The notes under the pieces are model-generated. The model was not told where the DNA came from. It saw only the letters and a program-made list of their open reading frames with translations, and made no database searches. A DNA stretch of 49,193 nt, taken from positions 1-49,193 of IMG/VR virus record IMGVR_UViG_3300031251_000032; one strand, written 5' to 3'. Below are positions 7,533 through 48,808 of this stretch, one piece after another. Made by a program: the position numbers and the translations under genes. The stretch's first letter is position 1, and each line of letters opens with the position of its first letter. Source of the DNA: a virus.

Positions 7533-7811
7533 ATGACCGAACCAACTTTAGAAGACTTAATTAAAGAGAACTCTAAGTTGAAACAACGAATAAAAAGATT
7601 AGAAAAAAGAGTGAAGAAGCTTAAAGCCAGAGACGAGACACTAGCTGAAGAAATATTAGAACTAGATCAAGAAGTAGCCAGCGAAATACCGATATATGAA
7701 AAAAAGATAGAAGGTCGCTGTCCTAAATGCGGAGCAAAAACAGAAGAGATAGAGATACCGGGACGTTTATTAATTATGTGTACTAAATGTCAGCATAGGG
7801 AGACTAAATAA
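7533..7811 (+). CDS. coiled-coil zinc-ribbon protein
   Basis: A 92-residue protein. Residues about 8-55 form a charged coiled coil (KENSKLKQRIKRLEKRVKKL). The C-terminus is a zinc ribbon with CPKCGAK and CTKCQHR, spaced as in a four-Cys zinc site. It overlaps the next gene by one base. A nucleic-acid or protein adaptor role is plausible, not shown. Confidence 0.65.
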   Translation: MTEPTLEDLIKENSKLKQRIKRLEKRVKKLKARDETLAEEILELDQEVASEIPIYEKKIEGRCPKCGAKTEEIEIPGRLLIMCTKCQHRETK

Positions 7812-8014
7812 TGAGTAGATATTTATGTGATCATTGCGGATCTAAACAGGAATCTGAGGGCACCCCCTTAATGCATGTTAGCTCTTCAGGAGAGCCTGTC
7901 CATATTGGCACAGCCTATAAATGCCTAGAATGTAAAAAATGGACCACTATTAGAAAACCTAGCCCAGCAGAGAAAGAGGACAACGACTGGCTTAATGGAT
8001 ATAGTAGATATTAA
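7811..8014 (+). CDS. small zinc-ribbon protein
   Basis: A 67-residue protein with CDHCGSK at the N-terminus and CLECKKW near residue 38, making a four-Cys zinc site. It follows another zinc-ribbon gene directly. Function unknown. Confidence 0.6.
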   Translation: MSRYLCDHCGSKQESEGTPLMHVSSSGEPVHIGTAYKCLECKKWTTIRKPSPAEKEDNDWLNGYSRY

Positions 8015-8026
8015 TTTGGAGGGTAT

Positions 8027-8227
8027 ATGATAGATCTAAGAACAAGTTTATTTTGTTTATTTATGATCTTAAATATGGCGGTATTAGCAGAAGTTTATAC
8101 TGAGCTAAATGAAGTTAAGTTGTCTTTGAATGAGAAAAGCTTGATTTATAATAAAGAGTATGATAAACTAAACCATCTACAAACTTTAAATGACTACTAC
8201 CAAGAAGCTATGTCGAGGGAGCAGTAA
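8027..8227 (+). CDS. small membrane-anchored helical protein
   Basis: A 66-residue protein with one hydrophobic N-terminal segment (SLFCLFMILNMAVLAEVY) followed by a helical, coiled-coil-like domain. A GGAGGG ribosome site precedes the ATG. The stop is adjacent to the next ATG. No family recognised. Confidence 0.6.
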   Translation: MIDLRTSLFCLFMILNMAVLAEVYTELNEVKLSLNEKSLIYNKEYDKLNHLQTLNDYYQEAMSREQ

Positions 8228-8554
8228 ATGAAAAGAATTCACCATATCTTTATAGATGATTTTGAGTTTTCTATCCTAGATGATTACAGTATGATAGTAA
8301 CCCCGATGAGCGGTAGAATATGGGATGTTAATAAGCCGCACGTGTTAGGATTTATAGATGATTTAGGGGATCTTTTACACTCTAAGCACATCGGAAGCAT
8401 AGAGATAGAGGATAGCCTCGACAGAGTACGCAGCGTATATTCCAACACTAACGGAACCTTTACTTTCGACAAACGATTGATGTCCAGATACTCCCTAACT
8501 AAGCTACTTTTATTTTTAGAAGATAGCTACAACTACAAGGAAACAAATGAATAG
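8228..8554 (+). CDS. hypothetical 108-residue protein
   Basis: Acidic alpha/beta protein starting MKRIHHIFIDDFEFSILDDY, with no recognisable catalytic motif. Its final bases overlap the next gene by eight bases, so the two are probably co-translated. Confidence 0.6.
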   Translation: MKRIHHIFIDDFEFSILDDYSMIVTPMSGRIWDVNKPHVLGFIDDLGDLLHSKHIGSIEIEDSLDRVRSVYSNTNGTFTFDKRLMSRYSLTKLLLFLEDSYNYKETNE

Positions 8555-20932: not shown

Positions 20933-21168
20933 TAACACCACGACACGCGTATAAAAATTACAAGGAATCTTTAGAAGGAAAGCAAAGAATGAAATTAGAT
21001 TTTAATAAATTAGATAATTACCAGTTATATGAATTAAAAAAAGCAATAAATGATATGAAGGAAGCAATATCAAATAATTTATTATGCGAGCTATTTGAAT
21101 TTAATCCTAATATAATTCTTAGAAAAATAGAAGAAGTACAAAATACTAGGAAATTAAAAAATGATTAA
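20929..21168 (+). CDS. hypothetical 79-residue helical protein
   Basis: Starts in an ATGA overlap and ends overlapping the polymerase start by eight bases. Highly charged and helical (QLYELKKAINDMKEAISNNL). Tight coupling to the polymerase gene suggests shared expression; function unknown. Confidence 0.55.
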   Translation: MITPRHAYKNYKESLEGKQRMKLDFNKLDNYQLYELKKAINDMKEAISNNLLCELFEFNPNIILRKIEEVQNTRKLKND

Positions 21169-24100
21169 TAAAGCGCTAGAACTTATATCAAGATCTAAAC
21201 TTCTGGCATTTGATACAGAGACTACCGGCTTAAATGTTAGAAAAGATAAAGTCATAGGTATTGGTTTATCTAACGAGAAGCTAGAATCTATTTATATCCC
21301 TATCTATTCCTGGAATGGCGAAGAATTATTGCATCTAGGAACCGATGTATCTCCGGTATTGGAAGCTTTAAAATCAAAATCTATTATAGCCCATAATAGC
21401 TATTTCGACTTAGAAATTACTAGAAACAATTTAGGGGTCGACTTATGGGACCAACTTCATGCTGATACAATAATGTTAATTCACACTGCTCAAGAGACCG
21501 GTCCCTTTGGATTGAAGCAGATAGCTAAGAAGCTCTGGGGATTAGACGAGCTTAAAGAACAAGAGGAGATGGCAGCATCCATTAAGGCTAATGGAGGCTC
21601 AGGTAAAGGAGAGATTTACAAGGCTGATACAATCCTGATAGGAAAATATTGTGAACAGGACTGTAAGTTGACCATGAAACTTTATCACCACTACGTTCCT
21701 ATTTTAAAAAAGGAAAATCTAGCAGACTTCTTCTTTGCTGATGAGGTTATGCCACTATATACTAAAGTCACAAGGACTATGCAATCTAGAGGCATTAAGT
21801 TGGATGTGCCCCTGCTTAAAGAAACTCAAGTATCCATAAACAAAGATATTGGTTCATTAGAAGTATCCATTCAAGCAGAGATAGCAGAGTACGTTGAAAG
21901 CGACTTTACAGACTGGTTATTTAACAAAGACTATCCCCCTAGAAGAACCGGAGACTTCTCACAAGTATTAGTACGTCTAGCAGGAGTACCGGTATCTAAA
22001 ACAAAAGGTGGAAAGTTTTCATTAACGGAGAAATCCCTATCTCCCTATAAAGAAAATAAGTTTATATCGTTCATTCTAGGCGGACCGTACCTAACTCAAG
22101 AAGAAGTAAGAAATGTACAAAACATTTTATGGACGGAAAATGCAGAGGGGTCGAAGTTTAACCTGAGCTCTAAGCACCACTTAAAGAAACTATTTTTTGA
22201 GTACTTGAGAGAGACTCCTACCTCTACTACTGATCTAGGTAATCCGCAAGTAGACGATGAGTTCCTGACTCTAATGGCTCAAAAATACAGTTGGGTGGCT
22301 ACTTTACAAGAATATAACAAGCTCATCAAGATTCGCGGGACTTATATTGACCGCTTTTTAGAAGAGCAAGAAGATGGCATTTTCTACCCAGACTTTAAGC
22401 AGCATGGAACTATCTCAGGCAGATACTCAGGAGATACGCAACAATTAAATAGACCTAGGGAAGATGACGGATCCTTATCTACTAAATACTCTAACATGAT
22501 CCGGAAGTTTTTTATAGCGGGGGATGGTTATAAGTTTATTGATTCAGATTATTGTTTACATCCTAATTGTGAACTTCTTACTTCTTTAGGATGGAAAAAA
22601 ATACTGGAAATATCTAAAGAAGATTTAGTGTGGCAAATTGATCCCATAACAACTGAAGGGTTATGGTGTAAGCCTTCTAGAGTAATAAAGAAAGAATACT
22701 CTGGTTATATGTACAGATTTGGAAATAGAAGAGGAACTTTCGATGTCACAGAGAACCATAGCATGTTATGGGTAGGTCAAAATAGCAATTGTTCTAGCAG
22801 AGGAGTGCCAAAAGTACAAAAAAATATGAGATGGTATTCAAAATCCCAGGAAGGGGTTCCTAACACTGCCTGTAATATTCTAACTGTATCAAAAACTGAT
22901 AATACCCATTCTGACTACAGTATTAAAGATATATGGATGGCTACAATGCTATCAGCAGATGGATATCTCATTTCTAATAGAGAGAGTTACTATAAAGTAG
23001 AAGTGTCTGTTCCAAAAAAGCTTACTAAAATAAGAGAATTGATCGGAAGAGAGCCTAATGAAGTTTCCACAACTCTTAGATACAAACAAAAACTATTACC
23101 TAGTACTTGGTATATAAAGTATAGTAGTAATTTATTATCAGGAAAAAAGGTAAATGTAGATTTAATAGGATCAAATCAGATAGAAGATTTTGTGGAAGCT
23201 TTATGTTTTTGGGATGGAAGTGATAATGGTCATAAAGATTATATATGGGGAAGCATTGATAAAGATCTAGTAGAAAAAGTACAAGTTAAACTAGTAAGTA
23301 ATGGATATGAAGCCAGATTAAGCATACGAGAATATGAAAACACCAACTTTTCCACTTTTTATAGTCTTCACATAATAAAAAAAGGGACTATAAGGGTTAG
23401 AAAAGAGGATGCAAAAAAATACTACTACTCAGGAATGGTTGGGTGTGTAACTGTAGATACTGGGTATATTTTAATAAGAAATAACGGTCAGACATTTGTT
23501 ACAGGTAATTGTAGTCTGGAGCCTCACGTATTTGCTCACGTATCAGGAGATGAGGGCTTAAAAGATATTTTTAGGCATGGTCACGATTTCTACTCAACAA
23601 TTGCTATTAAGACCGAGAAATTGAAAGGATATAGTGCAGATATAGAATCTCCGGACTACTTAGGTAAGAAGAATAAGGCTATAAGGCAGAAGGCTAAGGG
23701 ATACTCTCTTGGAATACCATACGGTTTAAGCCCATACGCACTTGCTTTTCACATAAACGTGAGCCAGGAAGAAGCAGAGCATTTGCATAGAGGGTATTTC
23801 GATGCGTTTCCAGACCTCAAGAAGTGGTACGATTCAAGTGCTGAGCTGGTTAAAAAGCATGGATATATTAAATCTGAGGCTGGTAGAATCCGACATATGC
23901 CAGAGGTGTTAGATATCATTAAGCGGTACGGCGACTGGATTTTAGACCCCTTAAAGCTATACGAGCAGTATAAAAACACCAATAGCTACGATCAGATGAA
24001 GGAAATACGAGGCAGGCTTAAGAACTATATGAATAATGCGAGAAACTTCCAGATTCAGAGCCTTAGCGCTTCTATAGTCAATAGGGCTGCTATAGCCATT

Positions 24101-24298
24101 CAGACTTATATAGACGAGAACGGATTAGATGCCTACATATGCGCAAACGTTCACGATCAACTTATACTAAGATCTAATGAAAGTCAGGTAGAGGTTCTAA
24201 AGCATAAATTGAAGGAGGTAATGGAGAATACTTATAAATTATCAATAGATTTGCATGCACCTCCTGCAATCGGTAATAATTTCTTTGACGCACACTAA
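21161..24298 (+). CDS. family A DNA polymerase with 3'-5' exonuclease and intein
   Basis: A 1045-residue precursor. Exonuclease motifs: LLAFDTETTG (Asp18, Glu20), HNSYFD (78-83), KYCEQDCK (Tyr163, Asp167). Polymerase motif A is FIDSDY joined after splicing to CSLEPHVFAHVSGD; motif B (O-helix) is RQKAKGYSLGIPYG, with Leu at the position of E. coli Phe762; motif C is NVHDQLIL, with Gln where Glu is usual. An intein of 319 residues (465-783) splits motif A, so the enzyme can work only after splicing; the mature product would be 726 residues. It is the replicative polymerase, acting with the primase-helicase at 12810. Confidence 0.93.
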   Translation: MINKALELISRSKLLAFDTETTGLNVRKDKVIGIGLSNEKLESIYIPIYSWNGEELLHLGTDVSPVLEALKSKSIIAHNSYFDLEITRNNLGVDLWDQLHADTIMLIHTAQETGPFGLKQIAKKLWGLDELKEQEEMAASIKANGGSGKGEIYKADTILIGKYCEQDCKLTMKLYHHYVPILKKENLADFFFADEVMPLYTKVTRTMQSRGIKLDVPLLKETQVSINKDIGSLEVSIQAEIAEYVESDFTDWLFNKDYPPRRTGDFSQVLVRLAGVPVSKTKGGKFSLTEKSLSPYKENKFISFILGGPYLTQEEVRNVQNILWTENAEGSKFNLSSKHHLKKLFFEYLRETPTSTTDLGNPQVDDEFLTLMAQKYSWVATLQEYNKLIKIRGTYIDRFLEEQEDGIFYPDFKQHGTISGRYSGDTQQLNRPREDDGSLSTKYSNMIRKFFIAGDGYKFIDSDYCLHPNCELLTSLGWKKILEISKEDLVWQIDPITTEGLWCKPSRVIKKEYSGYMYRFGNRRGTFDVTENHSMLWVGQNSNCSSRGVPKVQKNMRWYSKSQEGVPNTACNILTVSKTDNTHSDYSIKDIWMATMLSADGYLISNRESYYKVEVSVPKKLTKIRELIGREPNEVSTTLRYKQKLLPSTWYIKYSSNLLSGKKVNVDLIGSNQIEDFVEALCFWDGSDNGHKDYIWGSIDKDLVEKVQVKLVSNGYEARLSIREYENTNFSTFYSLHIIKKGTIRVRKEDAKKYYYSGMVGCVTVDTGYILIRNNGQTFVTGNCSLEPHVFAHVSGDEGLKDIFRHGHDFYSTIAIKTEKLKGYSADIESPDYLGKKNKAIRQKAKGYSLGIPYGLSPYALAFHINVSQEEAEHLHRGYFDAFPDLKKWYDSSAELVKKHGYIKSEAGRIRHMPEVLDIIKRYGDWILDPLKLYEQYKNTNSYDQMKEIRGRLKNYMNNARNFQIQSLSASIVNRAAIAIQTYIDENGLDAYICANVHDQLILRSNESQVEVLKHKLKEVMENTYKLSIDLHAPPAIGNNFFDAH
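22553..23509 (+). mobile_element. intein with LAGLIDADG endonuclease in the polymerase
   Basis: 319 residues. Seen: Cys1 (CLHPNCELLTSLGWKKI); block B T-x-x-H as FDVTENHSM (Thr66, His69); endonuclease motifs WMATMLSADGYL (128-139) and FVEALCFWDGS (213-223); block F VDTGYILI; terminal Asn319 followed by Cys+1. The residue before the last Asn is Gly (VTGN), not the common His. The insertion lies in motif A between Tyr and Cys, next to the catalytic Asp. Confidence 0.9.
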
Positions 24299-31093: not shown

Positions 31094-33769
31094 TTACATT
31101 TGCTCTACAATGAACCAGCCTACATTGCTAGTATCAGTGTTGCTTGAACTTGTTATAACAAAACTGGTCCCCACTGTTTTCGCTGTTACTCTAAGCCAGC
31201 CTGGGGTTCCTCCGTCTGCTTGAGAGGTTAAGAAAATAGTACTGTTTGAAGTAATAGAAGTATTAGCAACAGTAACCGTACCAGCAGCTAAGGTAGCTAT
31301 TCCTAATTTACAGTTAGGTCCTGATTTTACTGCTAGACCAAAACCCGCAGTACCAACTTGCATCATACCACTGGTAACTAAAGCATTTCCAGCATTTGAT
31401 ATTCTAAAATGCTCTACTACAGCTATCGTCGGACCTGTTTGGAATAATATAGCCCCTCCAGCTCCCGGAGTAGAAGAGTTTCCTCCCGTACCAGCAGAGA
31501 TAACCACGTTCCCTCCGGTCCCTCCAGTAGCTGAACCTACACCTCCATTTCCAGCATTAAGGTTGGTTGTGCCTCCGTTCGCTCCAGTAGTTGATGTCCC
31601 TACTCCTCCTAGTCCCGCAGTGATATTTATGTTAGAACCTCCAGAGCTACCGACTGATCTACCCACACTTAAAGTTAATGAGCCTCCTGAGTAGTTAGCG
31701 CTATTATCTCCATTAGCCTGACCAGTACTTATGGTCACTGTACCGCCCGCTCCTCCGTTTCCAGTATTACTACCTCCAGCAGAGGATATTGTAACAGACC
31801 CTCCCTGAGCACCTGCGAAGCTTCCAGGAGATCCTCCAGTAACGTTAGCTGGTCCTCCTGTTCCTCCAGAAGAAGACCCTGTTCCTCCTGTTCCACCAAC
31901 CAACTGAGCTGTTCCACCTTGCCCTGCTGATACACCATTTCCGCCAGATCCAGCTTTTACAGTAGCATTTCCACCATTACCAGAAGTTGCGCTTCCTACT
32001 CCACCCAATCCCCCATTAATGTTTACAGTACCACCAGTAGCTCCAGCAGTTCCAGTTCCTACTCCTCCGTTTCCACAGCTAAGAGTTATTCCTCCGCCCT
32101 GAGCACCACCCTTAGAGTTTCCTCCACTTATATTTACTGTTCCACCTGATTGGTTTACGGTGTTGTCTCCATTAGCATTTCCACCATTAAGGTTTAGGGC
32201 TCCCCCGTTTCCTCCCGATCCAGTTCCCGAACCAGATCCTCCAGCAATAGTAGCCTGACCACCAACTCCACCACTAGCAGCTGTACCGCCCGTAACCGTA
32301 ACCGTACCAGCAGGAGTAGTTCCTACTAGGTTGGCAGTAATAGTCCCGGCTGCAAAGTTTCCCGATCCGTCTCTTAGTACTATGGTATTTGGTGTGTTAG
32401 TACTAGTAGCATTGTTAGCTGCCACGGTAGCAGTATTAACCGCTGCTGCAGTAGATCCGCCAACATTATTTACAGTCGCAGAAACACTACCAGGACCAGA
32501 AGCGGTAATGCCTCCCGTCAACGCAGTAATATAAGAACCTGCTGGCTGTTTTCCATTAAAGGTATTCCAGTCAGTAGAAGATACATATCCTGCAGTCGAT
32601 GTTGTGGCTTGAGAAACTGCTATAGTAGTTCCTGAACCGAGCACTGCGTGAGTACCCCCACTTATAGTTAAAACGCTAGAAGTAGTTTCTGTCAAATTAC
32701 CATTAGGAACATCTGCAACAACCAAAGAACGAAAACTTGGAGCGCCCGATGAGCCATTTGGAGAAGCTAAAACTTCATTAGCTGTTTGCGAGTTTAAGCT
32801 GGATAAAGTTAAAGATGCTACACCCGTACCAGGAGAGCCGGTTATATTGAATAGACCTGTAGAATCTGTCAAAGATACCGAGGTTACTGGGGCTGTTCCA
32901 GAACTAGCAGCAGTTATTAATCCTTTAGCATTCACAGTCAAAGAAGCATTAGTAAACGAGCCAACATTAGAGTTAACAGTTGCTAGTGTGGCTGATGCTG
33001 CTCCTGAAGTACTTGTAGTCACATCACCCGTTAAGGATGTAAGTGGCGGGGTGCTAGAAGAAGCTGCGGTTATTAAACCTTTCGCATTAACAGTAAAAGA
33101 TCCGTAGGTAAATGATCCTATATTTGCGTTAACTGTTGCTAGGGTAGCTGCTTCAGATTGAGATCCTACTGCAGCATTAGTAGTGATATCTCCTGTTAAT
33201 TGATTTATAGCATTTACAGATATTGAACCTCCGCCTGATCCGTTAACAGAAGTAACAGGAGCAGTACCAGAAGATGCCGCAGTCACTAAGCCCTTAGCAT
33301 TTACGGTCAGCGACGCATTAGTAAACGAACCTATGTTGCTATTAACAGTAGCTAAAGTGCCGGCAACAGATCCAGGTCCTGTGGCAGAAAGGTCCCCACT
33401 TAAAGCCGTAATATAGGCGCCAGCAGGTTGCTTAGAATTAAAAGTGTTCCAATCTACGCTAGACAAGTAACCGTCTTGAGTAGATGTGGATTTTTGAACG
33501 TCTATAGTAGTACCTGAGCCTAAAACAGCATTAGTACCATTCCCTATAATTAAAACATCGGAAATAGATTCGGTTAAATTTCCAGTAACGGCAGAAGGAG
33601 ACACTGCAGGAATCCAAGCTATCCCATCCCAGGCGTATAAAACACTGGTGTCTAATGTTAATGCAAGTTCCCCTAAAATACCAACAAGAGGTAAGTCAGC
33701 AAAAGTAGAATAAAAAGCTACTGCTGTTCCCCCACCTCCAGAGAGAGGATCGTTGTAATAAACGGTCAT
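31094..33769 (-). CDS. large tail fibre with glycine-rich domain
   Basis: An 891-residue protein. Residues 1-110 are an attachment-type module shared with 30492; then several fibre repeats (TNASLTVNAKGLVTAASS, DGYLSSVDWNTFNSKQPAG). About residues 490-775 are extremely rich in Gly, Ser, Asn and Thr, with recurring G-G-x-[VI]-x-[VI]-x-G-G units. The last 110 residues form a different beta domain. Glycine-rich tips of this kind occur in adhesins such as the Gp38 type, so this is the best candidate for main receptor binding. Confidence 0.78.
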   Translation of the reverse strand: MTVYYNDPLSGGGGTAVAFYSTFADLPLVGILGELALTLDTSVLYAWDGIAWIPAVSPSAVTGNLTESISDVLIIGNGTNAVLGSGTTIDVQKSTSTQDGYLSSVDWNTFNSKQPAGAYITALSGDLSATGPGSVAGTLATVNSNIGSFTNASLTVNAKGLVTAASSGTAPVTSVNGSGGGSISVNAINQLTGDITTNAAVGSQSEAATLATVNANIGSFTYGSFTVNAKGLITAASSSTPPLTSLTGDVTTSTSGAASATLATVNSNVGSFTNASLTVNAKGLITAASSGTAPVTSVSLTDSTGLFNITGSPGTGVASLTLSSLNSQTANEVLASPNGSSGAPSFRSLVVADVPNGNLTETTSSVLTISGGTHAVLGSGTTIAVSQATTSTAGYVSSTDWNTFNGKQPAGSYITALTGGITASGPGSVSATVNNVGGSTAAAVNTATVAANNATSTNTPNTIVLRDGSGNFAAGTITANLVGTTPAGTVTVTGGTAASGGVGGQATIAGGSGSGTGSGGNGGALNLNGGNANGDNTVNQSGGTVNISGGNSKGGAQGGGITLSCGNGGVGTGTAGATGGTVNINGGLGGVGSATSGNGGNATVKAGSGGNGVSAGQGGTAQLVGGTGGTGSSSGGTGGPANVTGGSPGSFAGAQGGSVTISSAGGSNTGNGGAGGTVTISTGQANGDNSANYSGGSLTLSVGRSVGSSGGSNINITAGLGGVGTSTTGANGGTTNLNAGNGGVGSATGGTGGNVVISAGTGGNSSTPGAGGAILFQTGPTIAVVEHFRISNAGNALVTSGMMQVGTAGFGLAVKSGPNCKLGIATLAAGTVTVANTSITSNSTIFLTSQADGGTPGWLRVTAKTVGTSFVITSSSNTDTSNVGWFIVEQM

Positions 33770-41374: not shown

Positions 41375-44300
41375 TCAAGTTGTTGCGGAAACATTTGCAG
41401 AACCTAATTGACCTGGGGACTGCTTAATGCCTATATAGAACAATAAATTTGATAGAGACATACTTTGCCCATTAACGGCGCTTATGTCCTCTATTTTTAT
41501 TTTAATAGACTTACACTTCTGCTTAGTAAAGTTTACTCTTAATTGGTATAAATTTGATGCTCCAAAAGTGGACTCTTCACCAAATGGAGAATATTCCCCA
41601 AAGGTAGTGTCATCCGTGAAAGAAGAAGAGCTTATTATAGCCTCCTCTACGAAAGAGTCTACATAATCGTAGGCTACGCTAACCTTAAGGGTGTGCTGGG
41701 AGAAAAAGGATCCTAAAATAAGCATTCTATACACTCTCTGCAAACCTTGTATTCCTGCAAAACTAATCCAGCCAGTAGTGATGCTCATAGGAATATCAGT
41801 ACCGTTATCGTTAAAAGTAGAGTTTTCGTGATAAATAGATCCGTCAGTTCTAAGATAATAATAAGATCCGTAAATGACTTCCGCATCATAAGAAGGCATA
41901 TTAGTAAAGATTGACCATTTCTGTAAAAAATAATTATAAACTAAAGTTAGTCCTTCTTCGGTCCCAAATCTAACAGTATTTTTTGTTTGTACAGTTTTAG
42001 CAGAAGTTATCGTTAGATTATTATAAGCCTCTACCTGAGCTCCTACATACCCTACTTGAAGAGATCTTGAAAGTAAATAAATACCTTTTGAAGACTGGAA
42101 AAATAAGCCATCAGGAGCAATAACAACACTGTCTCTATTTACGCACCCTACGTCGGAAGATATTAGAGTAGCATCAATAAAATCATCCAATTGACCTAGA
42201 TTGTTAGGACCATTTCCGGATATGTAATAAATAGCTGTTTCTTTAAATATTACCAGCTTATCATCCATAGCCTTAATGGACATTATATTTCCTCCGTAAG
42301 GATTTATAAGACGATATAATGTGTCATTAAATTCTACTGGATATCCTTCATTTCTAATTTTAGAAAATACGATTTTATTTGGGTCAGTCAAGCCTGCTAA
42401 CCAAACTCTATTGTTAAAAACCTCGCATATAGAAGACTGAGGTGCTACTATATTCTCTAAGACTCCTCCAGTAGTGTATATTGGTTCATGGGAAATAATA
42501 TCAGAATCTGCTAAAGCATCTGAAAAAGTAACTGTATCTACTGTAGTATCATTAAAGATAGGGGAACTATATGTAGTAACTTTATAAAAGATAGTCTGAA
42601 GATTCTCAGTTCTATATACTTCTATTATAGCATTTTTTTCAGTAAGTCTCAGGGTTGGTATAGTTAGATTTATAGTATTGTTAGCTGCGGAAGTAGTTAC
42701 TGTTATGGCTATTGATGGAGCGCTTCTATGGATTTGACCTAGATTATCTGTCCATGCATATACTACCTGATATTGATACTGTCCAGCTGCTATGTTACCT
42801 ACCCCAGTGGTGATGGAGGCTGTTATATTCTCTGGATAAATAAAAAAACCATGCTCTACAGACCTGACTCCATCATACATAGTAAGAACACCGTTAGCTA
42901 CATGAAGAGTTTGTGCTAGAGTCCCGGACTGGTTTGGATTAGCTTGATTAAAGAAAAAAGTAGTAGTTTGCAAACCATTAAAAGTATAAAATGTACCTGA
43001 TTCGGTAATAAGAAGGCTAGTGCTGATAGAAGGAAAGAGTACTGTGTCAGAGTCTATTATGCCTATTTGAGGAAGGGGGGAAAACTCCTCAACAAATCCT
43101 CCAGAGGTTCCTGAGTCCAGTACACTAACCACGTTACCATTTCTATCCAGTAAAAAACTAGTTGGTTGAAGAGGTGATAAAAATGTAGTAGGAATAAATG
43201 GATACATTACTCCGCTAGCTATATTTATCGTAAATGCTTTTCCAGCTAAGCCTACACTTCTTCTGAAAACTGTGGGGGTTCCTACTACACCCAGAGAAGT
43301 TATGGTGTTAGATTTTATATAATATTTCATAGTATCAGCATCATTTATCTCATAGTATATCGTATAAATATTATCTATATAAACTGCTGTTGCATGAATT
43401 ATTGCTGGAAACTGTGTATCTATTGTGACTATATTTAATAGGGTAGAAAATAAATTCTCTCTAACTACCATAAAACTAAGCACTGAGCTGGACATAATGG
43501 ATATCATTATCCCCCCAGCGTTGTTGCTATCTAGATTTAATCCTGTTATTCCAGTTACAGATTGGATAACAAATGGAGTAGTAGATAAATCTGGAAATAT
43601 TTTAAAATAGGTTAAATTATTAGCGGCAGCTTTGTACGCCACAAATATACCGTCAGCAGTATTTATAACGTCGTAAATTCTCCATGAAGAATGTAAATCT
43701 GTTATTATATTAACCGGAGCAGTAAAAATAGAGGGATCAGCCAGACTAAATGTTATGTAGGAAATATTAGTACCGTTATCGTAAAACATAAAAATAGTAT
43801 TTCCGATATTGGCTAGCCTTAAGTGGGTGCCTACTGTAACTCCGTCGCTGGTAGCTACTTTTATCTGAGGGAGTATAGATCCTGTGGTAAGAATAACTTC
43901 ATGGTTTGTGTTGTTATTATCGGGATCTATTACTGTGTACCCGGTAGAAGCACTTATAGTAGATGCTACAATTTTTAAACCACTTACATATAAACAAGTA
44001 GTAGTGGAAGCATTATACTCACCTCTATACACAGTAAAAGAGCTTGCTTGTACATCGGAAACAGGTCCTCTTTTTATCCACTTATCTATTCCAGTAGAAT
44101 AGGAGTATAGGGAGTCTGAAGTGACAGCTACTAGTTCTTTATCTCTAGGCATTATAGATTTTATATTTAATCTATCGATACCAAACATGGCTATAGTAGC
44201 AGCATCGGTAGTAGCAAGAGATAAAGAGTCATATCCATTTCTTTTAGACAGTTTACCGGGATTTTCAAAAGTAACGTTTTCTGCTACTTGTAAAGTTCCT

Positions 44301-44380
44301 ATAGGAAGCTGCTTATCGTCCGTTTTTGTGTCTATTCCCTGCAATAATGGCATAGATACTTTTTGTTTTTGTAATGGCAT
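41375..44380 (-). CDS. hub or stabilisation-type virion protein (gp10-like)
   Basis: A 1001-residue protein starting MPLQKQKVSMPLLQGIDTKT, then ENVTFENPGKLSKRNGYDSL, an N-terminus typical of podovirus packaged-DNA-stabilisation or hub proteins. The rest is beta-rich and could form a propeller. It is placed after connector, small and fibre-like genes and before the ejection-type proteins, as gp10 is in P22-like gene orders. AAGGAG ribosome site. Confidence 0.6.
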   Translation of the reverse strand: MPLQKQKVSMPLLQGIDTKTDDKQLPIGTLQVAENVTFENPGKLSKRNGYDSLSLATTDAATIAMFGIDRLNIKSIMPRDKELVAVTSDSLYSYSTGIDKWIKRGPVSDVQASSFTVYRGEYNASTTTCLYVSGLKIVASTISASTGYTVIDPDNNNTNHEVILTTGSILPQIKVATSDGVTVGTHLRLANIGNTIFMFYDNGTNISYITFSLADPSIFTAPVNIITDLHSSWRIYDVINTADGIFVAYKAAANNLTYFKIFPDLSTTPFVIQSVTGITGLNLDSNNAGGIMISIMSSSVLSFMVVRENLFSTLLNIVTIDTQFPAIIHATAVYIDNIYTIYYEINDADTMKYYIKSNTITSLGVVGTPTVFRRSVGLAGKAFTINIASGVMYPFIPTTFLSPLQPTSFLLDRNGNVVSVLDSGTSGGFVEEFSPLPQIGIIDSDTVLFPSISTSLLITESGTFYTFNGLQTTTFFFNQANPNQSGTLAQTLHVANGVLTMYDGVRSVEHGFFIYPENITASITTGVGNIAAGQYQYQVVYAWTDNLGQIHRSAPSIAITVTTSAANNTINLTIPTLRLTEKNAIIEVYRTENLQTIFYKVTTYSSPIFNDTTVDTVTFSDALADSDIISHEPIYTTGGVLENIVAPQSSICEVFNNRVWLAGLTDPNKIVFSKIRNEGYPVEFNDTLYRLINPYGGNIMSIKAMDDKLVIFKETAIYYISGNGPNNLGQLDDFIDATLISSDVGCVNRDSVVIAPDGLFFQSSKGIYLLSRSLQVGYVGAQVEAYNNLTITSAKTVQTKNTVRFGTEEGLTLVYNYFLQKWSIFTNMPSYDAEVIYGSYYYLRTDGSIYHENSTFNDNGTDIPMSITTGWISFAGIQGLQRVYRMLILGSFFSQHTLKVSVAYDYVDSFVEEAIISSSSFTDDTTFGEYSPFGEESTFGASNLYQLRVNFTKQKCKSIKIKIEDISAVNGQSMSLSNLLFYIGIKQSPGQLGSANVSATT

Positions 44381-44389
44381 TTAAGCTCC

Positions 44390-45058
44390 TTATACTAAAT
44401 TCCAGTTAGAAGTACCGTCGGTAGCCATCCAAATACATCCTGTACCGGAGTTCATATTATAAAAAGCAGCCGAATTGACTGTGTCCGACCCATTAGGCAC
44501 AATATGAATTGGATTAGTGAAAGCAGCACCGAGAGAGTCCTTAATGGCAAATAATCTTCCTGGTGTTACTAATGCTATAGAAGGAAGATGTATAGTCCTA
44601 ATAGCGGAGGTATCTACTCCTATCAAGGTATAATTATCGGATGGTAAAATAGTTAAGTCGTTTGATATATTCAATATACCTAAACTATTTACGGTACCGG
44701 GAGCTGGGGCTAAGAAAGAGCCGTTAGTAACCTGTACAGAAGATCCAGAACCGTTAGTATAATACAAGTTTCCATTTACTACATACAAAGAAGCTACATT
44801 ACTAAGACCCACTAAGGGGGTTGTCTGCTGTACAAATTTAGTGGACAGTAGGTTCATAGCGGTGTACGAGTAAAAATTGAGATCAGCATTTATATTAAGA
44901 GCCGAAGAAGGGATTAGTTTCCCCTTACCATTCGTATGATCATGAGAGTCTATTGAATTAAAAGCAGTTATTAACTCTATAGCCCAAGCCGGACCTATCT
45001 CTACTGTAGGAACAGGCAAAGTAAGATTCATATATGCTGTAGTGGTTGTATTTCCCAT
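44390..45058 (-). CDS. fibre-like virion protein
   Basis: A 222-residue protein. N-terminal SIDSHDHTNGKGKLIPSSAL resembles the 'D-S-H-x-H-x-G' metal-site region of fibre collars. The C-terminal module (LPSIALVTPGRLFAIKDSLG ending TDGTSNWNLV) recurs in 27400. AAGGAG upstream. A short fibre or tail-tip part is likely. Confidence 0.65.
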   Translation of the reverse strand: MGNTTTTAYMNLTLPVPTVEIGPAWAIELITAFNSIDSHDHTNGKGKLIPSSALNINADLNFYSYTAMNLLSTKFVQQTTPLVGLSNVASLYVVNGNLYYTNGSGSSVQVTNGSFLAPAPGTVNSLGILNISNDLTILPSDNYTLIGVDTSAIRTIHLPSIALVTPGRLFAIKDSLGAAFTNPIHIVPNGSDTVNSAAFYNMNSGTGCIWMATDGTSNWNLV

Positions 45059-45079
45059 TGAAGTCTCCTTAATTTATCG

Positions 45080-45394
45080 CTAAAAAACCCAAATATCTAC
45101 TGTAACATTGTTTGTGCAGTTAAGTATTAGACTTATTGCTTGCGTGGGATTGGTGTCCTGAGAATCCCATATGTCAGAATTTGCTCTTTTACGTATTATA
45201 TACCATCCAACCAAACCTCTTCCCAATTTATGATTTATAACATTAGGACCGCTGGAAAGTAAATTTATATTTTTTAACACTATCCCATCTATAATCTCTT
45301 TACTGCCAATAGTATCTATAGCGTAAGTAAGATTATCTTGGACTTTAGACAAGTCAAGATCTTTAGTGTTTATGGTTCTAGTTTTTTTAATCAT
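45080..45394 (-). CDS. hypothetical virion protein
   Basis: A 104-residue protein, with NVINHKLGRGLVGWYIIRKR and a beta-rich C-terminus ending VTVDIWVF. The 'N-x-x-N-H-x-L-G-R' and 'G-W' segments are common in small phage tail proteins near fibre genes. Its ATG lies on the tail of an HNH relic, which also supplies the AAAGG ribosome site. Confidence 0.6.
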   Translation of the reverse strand: MIKKTRTINTKDLDLSKVQDNLTYAIDTIGSKEIIDGIVLKNINLLSSGPNVINHKLGRGLVGWYIIRKRANSDIWDSQDTNPTQAISLILNCTNNVTVDIWVF

Positions 45395-45524: not shown

Positions 45525-46229
45525 TTAAAACCAGTAGAAGTCGTCTTCGGAATAGATATCGCTTATCGACTCAGGCTTTCCAGCATCTCTATTCTGAGCA
45601 GCCTCTTCAATTCTACGCTTCAGTGCTTGCTTTTGAGCCATTAAGACGCTGGGGTCTGACTCTTCTTTTTGTAACATTTTAATAGCAGCGTCTACTATTA
45701 CATACTCCGAATATTGGTTTAGATCATCCAAAGTATCAGTGTCTGCGGATAATATTGGAGCTACGGGTATATACCAAATTCTTAGAGGTATATTCCCAGT
45801 CTGGCTAGGAACAAAACGCATAGTATTACCAATCATTCTATATCTCAGAGATGTAATACCTAATCTATCCCATACACCAAATCTCTGAAATCTATTCCGC
45901 TCGTTGAATGAATAGGGTCTTAATGTAGACCAGTCTTGGCTATTTATCTTAGCATCAATACCTACCAGTTTATAAAAATCATTCGCTGGAATAAGAGTAG
46001 AGATCAAAACGGAAGACCCATCATTATCCGGATCATTTCCGGTAACTAAAGTATATAAAGCCTGATTAATAGTGTAATCAGATCCATAAGATTGAACCAT
46101 CATGTCATGTAATTCAGCTATTGAATGGTTTATATATGAAGTAAGTTCTGAGTCAGATATGAAATCATTATTTACCATATCTGCCCGTTCTCTTGAATGT
46201 TGTTTTAGGTCTGCTAACGTTATAGACAT
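45525..46229 (-). CDS. head-tail connector or adaptor protein
   Basis: A 234-residue protein that starts with LADLKQHSRERADMVNNDFI and SDSELTSYINHSIAELHDMM, the all-alpha start seen in podovirus head-tail adaptors, followed by a beta part (SLRYRMIGNTMRFVPSQTGN) and a helical C-terminus. The order (virion proteins, connector, hub) fits. ATAGGAG ribosome site. Identity is inferred from pattern and position. Confidence 0.65.
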   Translation of the reverse strand: MSITLADLKQHSRERADMVNNDFISDSELTSYINHSIAELHDMMVQSYGSDYTINQALYTLVTGNDPDNDGSSVLISTLIPANDFYKLVGIDAKINSQDWSTLRPYSFNERNRFQRFGVWDRLGITSLRYRMIGNTMRFVPSQTGNIPLRIWYIPVAPILSADTDTLDDLNQYSEYVIVDAAIKMLQKEESDPSVLMAQKQALKRRIEEAAQNRDAGKPESISDIYSEDDFYWF

Positions 46230-46310: not shown

Positions 46311-46583
46311 TTATTCTTGGGAATGGTCGTATTCTTCGTGTGGTTCTTTTTCGTACTCATCAAAGCAGAGTTCTATAAAGGACTTTAAGGCGTCTTTGAA
46401 CTTGGCTTTATCATCTGATTTTAAAGCTTCCATCATTTCTTCAACAGCCGCATCATGTCCTTCTGACCCATCGTCTTTTTCATCCATTTCTGGTTTTTCT
46501 TCTTCTTTCTGAGCTTTTGGCTTTTTCATCCTAGAGATGATCATTGCTAAGCCGCCAGCATTGCTATCATTGTCACTCATCAT
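46311..46583 (-). CDS. small acidic protein
   Basis: A 90-residue, very acidic protein ([20 protein letters not shown] then many Glu, Asp and Lys), helical toward the end ([15 protein letters not shown]). AAGGAG is spaced for the ATG at 46583. Such proteins near capsid genes are often scaffold-like or head-completion factors, but nothing here proves it. Confidence 0.6.
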
Positions 46584-46593
46584 TTGAGACTCC

Positions 46594-47013
46594 TTATATG
46601 GTTACGTTTGTATTCTTAAGTTCTATAACTGCTTTAAGCACGTCTCCGCTAGATAGGTCTGTTAAAACCCCAGCAGCGAGAGTGTAAAAATCAAAATATT
46701 TATTTGCAGTTACAGAAACCTGATTAATGCTCTTTAGCTGAATTGTTTTATCTTCTCCAGAAGACTTTACTATAATAGCATCAAAAAACTTCATAGAAAA
46801 GAAAGCATCGAATAAAGTAACTCTATATAAACCTGTGGACAATCTAACGATTGACTTGATACCGGGATTAGTAGCAACGGTGCTTTGATCTACTGATGCA
46901 AAATTAGGAACTAAAGTTTGACTTCCAGCCGATCCTACTACTGTCTGATCAATATAAAGATCTTTTATTTCGTGCTCTAGACATTGACGCTTATTAAAAT
47001 TTCTATTAGCCAT
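46594..47013 (-). CDS. virion-type protein, paralogue without DUF3494 domain
   Basis: A 139-residue protein. The first 20 residues ([20 protein letters not shown]) are nearly the same as those of the larger neighbour at 47025, and residues about 50-139 ([20 protein letters not shown] through [12 protein letters not shown]) match the neighbour's C-terminus. So it is a duplicate that lacks the central domain. A capsid-decoration role would fit but is inferred. Confidence 0.7.
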
Positions 47014-47024
47014 AAATCCCCCTC

Positions 47025-48059
47025 TTAAAGAGCTGAAGTGTTTTTAAGTTCTGCTTTTATTAGGAGAACATCAGCAAATTGTGGATCAGTAGGAACCCCT
47101 GCTTTCAAACAAAGAAACTCAATGGTAGCTGGAGTATTCGGAACAGAAGGAGTAATAACTGGATCAACTGAAAAAGCTTTAAGTTGGAACGTTAGATCTT
47201 CGGCTACAGCGCTAACTACCATAACTCGGAAAGCTTTTAAAAACATATAATGATCTTGTAAAGTAAGTGTATAATCTCCAGCACTGTTTCTAACAACAGA
47301 CTTAAAGCCTGGAGAAAGGTTCAAAACAGGAGTAATTACATTAAGGGGTTGAGCTACGATTACGGCTGCTGCTGAAATTGTTACTGCACCAGTTAAGGCT
47401 ATTAAATTTCCATTAATTGTGCCGCCAAGAGTATCAGTAATAGAAGCCTGAGCAATAATGTTACCGTTATGTACTCCTGCAGTTCCTGAGTTAATAGTTG
47501 CGGAAGATCCTACAATAAAGAAAACATTAGAGGCTACTGCACCACCGGTTAGAGATATCGTTGCTGCACCGCCGGCTCCAGTAGTCAGAGTAGAGGCAGT
47601 TTTAATGACAAATATGTCAGTAGCGCTACCATTAAGTGTTAGCGTCCCAGGAGCAGATTGAGCCAAAGTAGCTGCACCAGAAGCAAAGCTATAGTAGCCA
47701 GCTGAAAGTGTTTGACCATCTAATGCTGAGGGAATGGTAGTAGAAGCATGAGCAGCTAAGGTGGTATAAACAGCCAATGCATCTAGTTGAGCTTGCTGTG
47801 CTGCGGCGTTTGCTACATTGGTAGCCCCACTTACAACAAAAGTACCACTAACGGAAGTACCGGGATAAAGACCCAAATTACCTTGAATGCTGGTGCTGCC
47901 TACCGAGTTTGTTACTGCAGAAGCTCCTAAAATACCATAAGCTGCTGCTGAGTTAAGCATGCTAGGTCCAGAAACTACCGAGGTAATAGAAACATTAGCA
48001 TAAAGATCTTTGATCTCTTTTTCTAGGGCTTGGCGTCTGTTAAAATTGCGATTAGCCAC
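47025..48059 (-). CDS. virion-type protein with DUF3494 (ice-binding-like) domain
   Basis: A 344-residue protein beginning at a GTG with AAAAAGGAG upstream. Residues 1-20 and about 248-344 match the small paralogue at 46594. Between them, residues about 34-237 show the pattern of DUF3494 (type of microbial ice-binding proteins): YGILGASAVTNSVGSTSIQG, NLGLYPGTSVSG, the QAQLDALAVYTTLAAH helix, LSAGYYSFASGAATL, TDIFVIKTASTLTTGAGGAA, SNVFFIVGSSATINSG, and GNLIALTGAVTIS. Such beta-solenoids bind ice or act in adhesion. The domain has probably been inserted into a phage virion protein. Confidence 0.8.
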   Translation of the reverse strand: MANRNFNRRQALEKEIKDLYANVSITSVVSGPSMLNSAAAYGILGASAVTNSVGSTSIQGNLGLYPGTSVSGTFVVSGATNVANAAAQQAQLDALAVYTTLAAHASTTIPSALDGQTLSAGYYSFASGAATLAQSAPGTLTLNGSATDIFVIKTASTLTTGAGGAATISLTGGAVASNVFFIVGSSATINSGTAGVHNGNIIAQASITDTLGGTINGNLIALTGAVTISAAAVIVAQPLNVITPVLNLSPGFKSVVRNSAGDYTLTLQDHYMFLKAFRVMVVSAVAEDLTFQLKAFSVDPVITPSVPNTPATIEFLCLKAGVPTDPQFADVLLIKAELKNTSAL

Positions 48060-48148: not shown

Positions 48149-48808
48149 TTATAGGTTATTATGCTTACTAACTCTAGAAATCCAGTCAAAAAACTCCGAT
48201 TCTGACATTGTATGTTTGGCAAAGTTACAGGTCTTGCAGCAAGGTACAACATTCCCTATTTCGTAAGATATTTTGTTGTCTACTCTATCTATTCCGTTGT
48301 ATGGGTTAGGTTTAGATCCGCAGTAATGGCAATCTGACACTAATATTTTTGCAGCTTCTAAATCAGTTATGTTCCATGGATGTTTAGCATTATTTTTTTT
48401 CCATCTAACTGTATTCCTTATCCTAAGACCTCTACGACCTTCTTCTCTTGTAGGGTCTATCTCTAGAAACTCTTTATCGCATAAATGATCCTGAGGTCCC
48501 TTCATTTGTTCTATACGCTCAGGAGAAAGTTTTATTCCTTTTTTAGCCTCGCTGATCTTTTGTTTTCTTTCCTCTGATAAAGGAACTCCAGTATTTTTCT
48601 TGTGGGATTCTTTTAGACCGCACTCATTGCAGCGCTTACTAAGACCACTTCGTAGATTAGCTCCTTTAACAACTCTTTTATTGCCGCATGAGCATGTACA
48701 ATGGTAATAAACAACTTTTCCTTTATTATGGGAGTACTCATCTACTGTCCACTCGTTAAATTTCTTACCGATCATGTCAATTCTTTTATTTTCTCTTTTA
48801 GTTTCCAT
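48149..48808 (-). CDS. HNH homing endonuclease with N-terminal zinc and NUMOD3-like region
   Basis: A 219-residue protein. N-terminal domain: HCTCSCGNKRVVKGANLRSG (36-55) and CNECG, a zinc-binding part common in phage mobile endonucleases. Middle: LSEERKQKISEAKKGIKLS (77-95), like NUMOD3. HNH domain: CHYCGSK (160-166), NGIDRVDNK (171-179), NVVPCCKTCNFAK (186-198). It has its own promoter and is followed by a stem-loop-containing gap, so it looks like an island inserted among structural genes. Confidence 0.88.
   Translation of the reverse strand: METKRENKRIDMIGKKFNEWTVDEYSHNKGKVVYYHCTCSCGNKRVVKGANLRSGLSKRCNECGLKESHKKNTGVPLSEERKQKISEAKKGIKLSPERIEQMKGPQDHLCDKEFLEIDPTREEGRRGLRIRNTVRWKKNNAKHPWNITDLEAAKILVSDCHYCGSKPNPYNGIDRVDNKISYEIGNVVPCCKTCNFAKHTMSESEFFDWISRVSKHNNL

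Follow-up and report, generated by a model that had tools for sequence, protein, structure and literature searches.

Near the right end of a viral record of 49,193 bases from IMG/VR, classed as linear and referred to here as the window, a head-type protein of 344 amino acids (aa) carries an inserted ice-binding-type domain of the DUF3494 family. Its gene (47025..48059, minus strand, GTG start) lies in the neighbourhood of that for the major capsid protein (MCP). What the initial annotation presented as a lone oddity belongs to a recurrent phage module that is exchanged horizontally. Taken as a whole, the explanation that we consider probable is that a small head protein was duplicated and that the 344-aa protein is its modified second copy, carrying a DUF3494 adhesion module from a pool shared among phages.

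The inserted domain and its predicted fold

A search with the profile PF11999 covered residues 43-233 of the 344-aa protein (profile positions 1-207 of 208, E 2.5e-30) with a score of 106.2 bits against a curated cut-off of 28.7, and the solved structures closest to it in sequence belong to ice-binding proteins (6eio, E 6.6e-24; 7bwx, E 5e-14). This full-length match confirms the DUF3494 identity first proposed for the segment. The inserted domain spans residues ~37-238 (47346..47951, minus strand), in agreement with the original estimate of roughly 200 residues. The flanks on either side align with a neighbouring 139-aa paralogue that lacks the insert (46594..47013, minus strand). The N-terminal flank, residues 1-36 (47952..48059, minus strand), includes MANRNFNRRQALEKEIKDLYA and is common to both proteins; the C-terminal flank, residues 239-344 with the stop codon (47025..47345, minus strand), has a segment ending in ELKNT and is homologous to paralogue residues ~50-139. 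These homologous flanks bear out the suggestion that the 344-aa protein is a tandem duplicate of its neighbour. They had been described as almost shared, which holds for the nearly identical N-terminus, whereas the C-terminal half is only moderately similar.

In an AlphaFold2 model (49 sequences), residues 41-238 are predicted with a pLDDT of ~97 and the C-terminal flank with low confidence. The predicted fold is that of DUF3494, a beta-solenoid with three faces and a single long alpha helix. Foldseek matched it to 31 PDB chains at E <=0.001, all of them ice-binding or antifreeze proteins of the DUF3494 family, and alignment with VIA-align gave a Z of 31.4 and an rmsd of 1.3 A over 196 residues against AnpIBP (7bwx), and a Z of 30.7 against 6eio. 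Both the PF11999 match and the beta-solenoid, on which the initial annotation had made its reading depend, were therefore found. Among Foldseek matches in BFVD, DUF3494 was seen in Hyperionvirus, a giant virus, only, and no phage protein carried it. Modelled alone, the 139-aa paralogue is predicted to form a beta-sandwich (pLDDT 74.7) with weak structural matches, the best being a tailspike C-terminal domain (Z 7.4); a Pam1 capsid chain was matched only at E 0.15. Aligned onto this model, DUF3494 enters the loop that connects the first strand (residues 16-24) to the second (52-59).

The locus in the window

On the minus strand near the right end of the window, the gene order begins with a 60-aa C-terminal fragment of the MCP, cut by the contig end (49009..49191; E down to 8e-34 against proteins of ~400 aa), and an HNH homing-type endonuclease (48149..48808), which lies between the MCP and the 344-aa gene. 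After the 344-aa and 139-aa genes come a 90-aa acidic protein, whose position is conserved in relatives (46311..46583), a 234-aa adaptor-like protein that serves as a marker of the conserved locus (45525..46229; 40 IMG/VR relatives), and three conserved genes encoding proteins of 1001, 222, and 104 aa that are common to relatives (41375..45394). A head maturation protease is encoded at the opposite end of the record (119-844), so the contig was probably cut inside the MCP gene, and its ends probably adjoin across the missing part of that gene. The 49,193 bases contain no further or stand-alone PF11999 or DUF3494 gene.

Other features of this region and of the wider genome were also observed. 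A close homologue of the HNH endonuclease (L005:3324-3998, E 3.5e-98) occupies the same place between the MCP and the next conserved protein in a related phage, and additional genes were seen at this point in several more relatives. In another locus (L147:3378-5393), an HNH-like ORF of 166 aa separates two pieces of the MCP gene (112 and 317 aa), as if a homing element had split the gene. An Rfam search of the window and three loci found no known RNA or intron, and no intron was matched at L147. Elsewhere in the window, the C-terminal 90 residues of an 891-aa tail-region protein (31094-33769, minus strand) match phrog_24355, which is annotated as polysaccharide deacetylase, and a family A DNA polymerase (21161-24298, plus strand) has its nearest annotated relatives, at 42% identity, in Flavobacterium phages, which hints weakly at a Bacteroidota host.

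The same slot in related phages

Relatives were gathered through the adaptor (40 IMG/VR contigs) and through an MCP alignment (80 loci among 553 confirmed stretches), giving 104 distinct MCP loci, 85 of which have the adaptor downstream. A recognized protein fills the slot between MCP and adaptor in 82 of these 85 loci. This family is thus encoded beside the MCP in conserved order, as is expected of decoration proteins, with the MCP in the window itself being the 60-aa fragment. The original claim that the 344-aa protein is of phage virion type is supported by this fixed setting of MCP, slot protein, small acidic protein, and adaptor. The slot protein is present as a single copy in 76 loci and as a double copy in 6, and in all 6 of the latter the longer copy has an insert. 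It almost always lacks DUF3494; a search of 20 related phage records with PF11999 found none. The initial annotation had proposed a search for the same flanks with and without the insertion; the paralogues have many IMG/VR relatives, mostly bare single copies. No viral relatives came up with degenerate patterns drawn from just the 139-aa protein, whereas the adaptor search did find them. Searches of annotated phage records gave no match to either paralogue (E 0.01) or to the 6EIO domain (E 1).

The inserts in second copies elsewhere vary. In L004, L005, L010, and L192 the insert is a repeat domain of no Pfam family, and second copies with inserts outside Pfam families were seen at L004:6469-7641, L005:4852-6426, L010:6896-7672, L016:6961-7695, and L192:7003-7782. 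We read such inserts as alternative display domains at one locus. In L144, where the MCP matches the major head protein family phrog_14242 (E 1.4e-13), DUF3494 is nested inside another insert, between ...ITPNDGTN and TPVDLTTAEL..., a stretch that is unbroken in L004, L010, and L192. This insertion site differs from that in the window protein. The linker ITSVVSGPS in the window protein resembles LTSVASGPS, the first strand of the outer insert in L144, and may be a remnant of such an insert, a likeness of sequence that is only suggestive.

DUF3494 in unrelated virion proteins of other phages

Scans with DUF3494 alignments and PF11999 identified at least 82 further distinct DUF3494-bearing ORFs in 68 IMG/VR phage contigs, and in a PF11999 search 27 of 27 records were positive, with up to 5 copies each. 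The domain is found inside several unrelated families of virion proteins, including sheath, baseplate wedge, and head-slot proteins. Some containers match tail sheath (phrog_279, phrog_2839) and others baseplate wedge (phrog_6, Baseplate_J). About 20 are of head type, with an MCP gene just upstream in 10 and just downstream in 4, and others are large proteins of no assigned type, probably tail proteins. Circular permutation marks the domain in the main sheath group (as seen in G009), with PF11999 positions ~56-206 coming first and then 2-111. Circular permutants were seen in L133, L136, L141, L142, L152, L163, L165, L294, L303, and others, mainly in sheath homologues; that in L294 lies in an MCP-adjacent head protein. 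As a separate observation, two GIY-YIG-like nuclease ORFs flank a DUF3494-bearing protein of 1254 aa (L124:2923-3792 and 7574-8323), and have counterparts in L002 (2941-3810 and 7592-8341).

Adjacent pairs of bare and DUF3494-bearing head-type paralogues recur in several families, with lengths (bare/domain-bearing, in aa) of 124/471, 213/453, 226/442, 240/452, 220/451, 154/380, 171/411, 135/347, 114/425, and 128/341. In L285, L291, L309, and L317 the pair adjoins the MCP. If the display reading is right, these pairs suggest a general rule for dosing a bulky surface domain. The 68 contigs come from 44 datasets; the MCP and adaptor relatives come from 103, and just 1 dataset is in both sets. This near-absence of overlap hints that the two sets of phages come from different environments. 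Several datasets with DUF3494 contigs are from what we take to be peat, permafrost, tundra-plant, or glacier-forefield samples.

History of the domain

The cellular domains used in tree building were the best 80 of at least 501 relatives from one general scan (37-50% identity); a scan of cellular contigs with two phage domains as query found no relatives. In the tree, a single group with support of 98/93 unites the sampled cellular domains, and nearly all phage domains fall outside it. In a wider tree, the domains of L153, L156, and L157 are placed with those of cells and look like separate captures. The sister of the window domain is one from a baseplate-wedge protein in L140 (support 100/96). 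The history of the domain is discordant with that of its containers: the domain tree shows 15 changes of container among 9 kinds, and a single clade for the six head-slot domains is rejected (p-AU 0.0035). The window and L140 domains are 84% identical as protein and 68% as DNA, with dN of 0.15 and dS saturated, which points to strong purifying selection. The G + C content of the domain is 0.45, against 0.38 for the window.

A model for display on the particle

In the model that we propose, the 344-aa protein would be an altered second copy of a small, putative decoration-type head protein encoded directly after the MCP, with the complete solenoid accommodated in the loop between the first two strands. 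Its domain would have been drawn from a DUF3494 pool that passes between phages and between unrelated virion proteins, rather than directly from a sampled cellular gene. Particles would then combine bare subunits of 139 aa with domain-bearing ones of 344 aa, showing the solenoid on the surface, where its flat Ser/Ala-x-Thr B-face could work as a multivalent adhesion surface. Many weak contacts made at once by such a mixed lattice could provide adhesion, in the manner suggested for phage Ig-like domains (PMC9230969). Synteny and homology make display of the domain on virions very probable, and the presence of the same domain inside tail sheath and baseplate homologues of other phages fits with surface display. 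Incorporation into particles, the outward orientation, and the ligand are what we infer from these patterns. By analogy with phage Ig-like domains, the best reading is that DUF3494 acts as a promiscuous adhesion module for virion display that has kept its canonical ice-binding face.

The B-face, possible ligands, and alternative explanations

Ice binding by AnpIBP depends on its B-face residues S153 and T156, mutation of which cut activity to 17% (PMC7277481). Counted along the alignment with Y131 as anchor, they correspond to S185 and T188 of the window protein, columns that are kept in 37 of 39 and 39 of 39 phage domains, respectively. The Ser/Ala-x-Thr columns of the window B-face are S47-T50, S156-T159, S185-T188, A205-T208, and G224-T227. 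The Thr columns of other coils are also mostly kept in phage domains, and together this conservation indicates that the canonical ice-binding site is intact. Retention of the B-face is not proof of ice binding, because the motif is conserved across cellular DUF3494 too and PF11999 also occurs in many ice-free habitats (PMC12337378). Ice is tentatively the likeliest ligand, followed by other surfaces. It is conceivable, if doubtful, that capsids, sheaths, and baseplates of tailed phages are coated with functional, phage-exchanged DUF3494 domains by which particles adhere to ice or survive freeze-thaw.

The frequency of PF11999 in ice-free habitats also suits a displayed adhesin that binds, instead of ice, a polysaccharide, a cell-wall polymer, or another ordered surface of soil or host. 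PF11999 is counted among the adhesive domains of fibrillar adhesins, and insertion in sheath, baseplate, and head proteins parallels that of Ig-like domains, the proposed binders of cell-surface carbohydrates (PMC9230969). This is a credible possibility towards which we lean less than halfway, since the close solved structural matches are ice-binding proteins and the ice-binding residues of AnpIBP are kept. That conservation of B-face columns, beyond the core, also makes it unlikely that the domain is a rigid spacer or stabilizer with no ligand, for example bracing adjacent subunits, as does its absence from most relatives at the same locus. Such a structural role would agree with the presence of the domain in several assembled structures, with a published proposal that extra sheath domains stabilize tails, and with alternative inserts at the same locus that have no Pfam match.

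Two further explanations are rejected. PF11999 genes of Arctic vOTUs have been interpreted as auxiliary metabolic genes (PMC11515562), and an ice-binding protein that protects the infected host could be imagined here; this is very improbable given that the domain interrupts, in frame, a member of a capsid-locus family, that the window has no stand-alone DUF3494 gene, and that other copies lie inside sheath and baseplate homologues. The chance of an assembly chimera or misannotation is negligible. The protein comes from a single metagenomic contig and its domain differs in G + C content from the window, but the reading frame is single and unbroken, another phage carries a domain with 84% identity to it, and independent contigs (L144, L267, L288, L300, and others) with the same architecture contradict it.

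Comparison with known systems

The fold and the display principle are each known, and we could not find their combination described. Among the open-access papers searched, none containing both "DUF3494" and "phage" was found, and the placement of DUF3494 in phages was not found in the literature searched. One antifreeze protein has been noted in Southern Ocean viruses (PMC8407431). If the display reading is true, DUF3494 would join the Ig-like domains as the second large class of promiscuous surface domain in phages, one that has an ice-binding pedigree, and viral PF11999 matches that have so far been taken as host cryoprotection genes would be recast as components of the particle. Ice binding by viruses, or their use of freeze-thaw niches, would become directly testable, and the circularly permuted sheath copies would provide natural re-wirings of a well-studied solenoid.

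The Arctic vOTU genes belong to the same Pfam family and also lie in viral contigs; they were interpreted as host cryoprotection (PMC11515562), whereas the copies described here belong to virion-type proteins. Cellular DUF3494 proteins, such as AnpIBP (7BWX), EfcIBP (6EIO), and FfIBP (4NU2), have the same full-length domain, helix-bearing solenoid (predicted in the window protein), and B-face motif. They are secreted or found on the cell surface, whereas the window domain is inserted into a head-type protein of a phage and groups with domains that are mostly phage-borne. T4 Hoc and the N4 Ig-like decoration proteins (PMC10385173, PMC11768535) combine a small capsid-bound protein with an outward display domain, an arrangement that is proposed here too. 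In our searches, no kinship of the capsid-anchoring family to these proteins was seen, and in the window bare and domain-bearing copies are in tandem. Phage Ig-like domains provide a parallel in being inserted in or fused to unrelated head, sheath, and baseplate or tail proteins and exchanged between phages. They differ in having another fold, whereas DUF3494 has a known ice-binding lineage and is often a circular permutant in sheaths.
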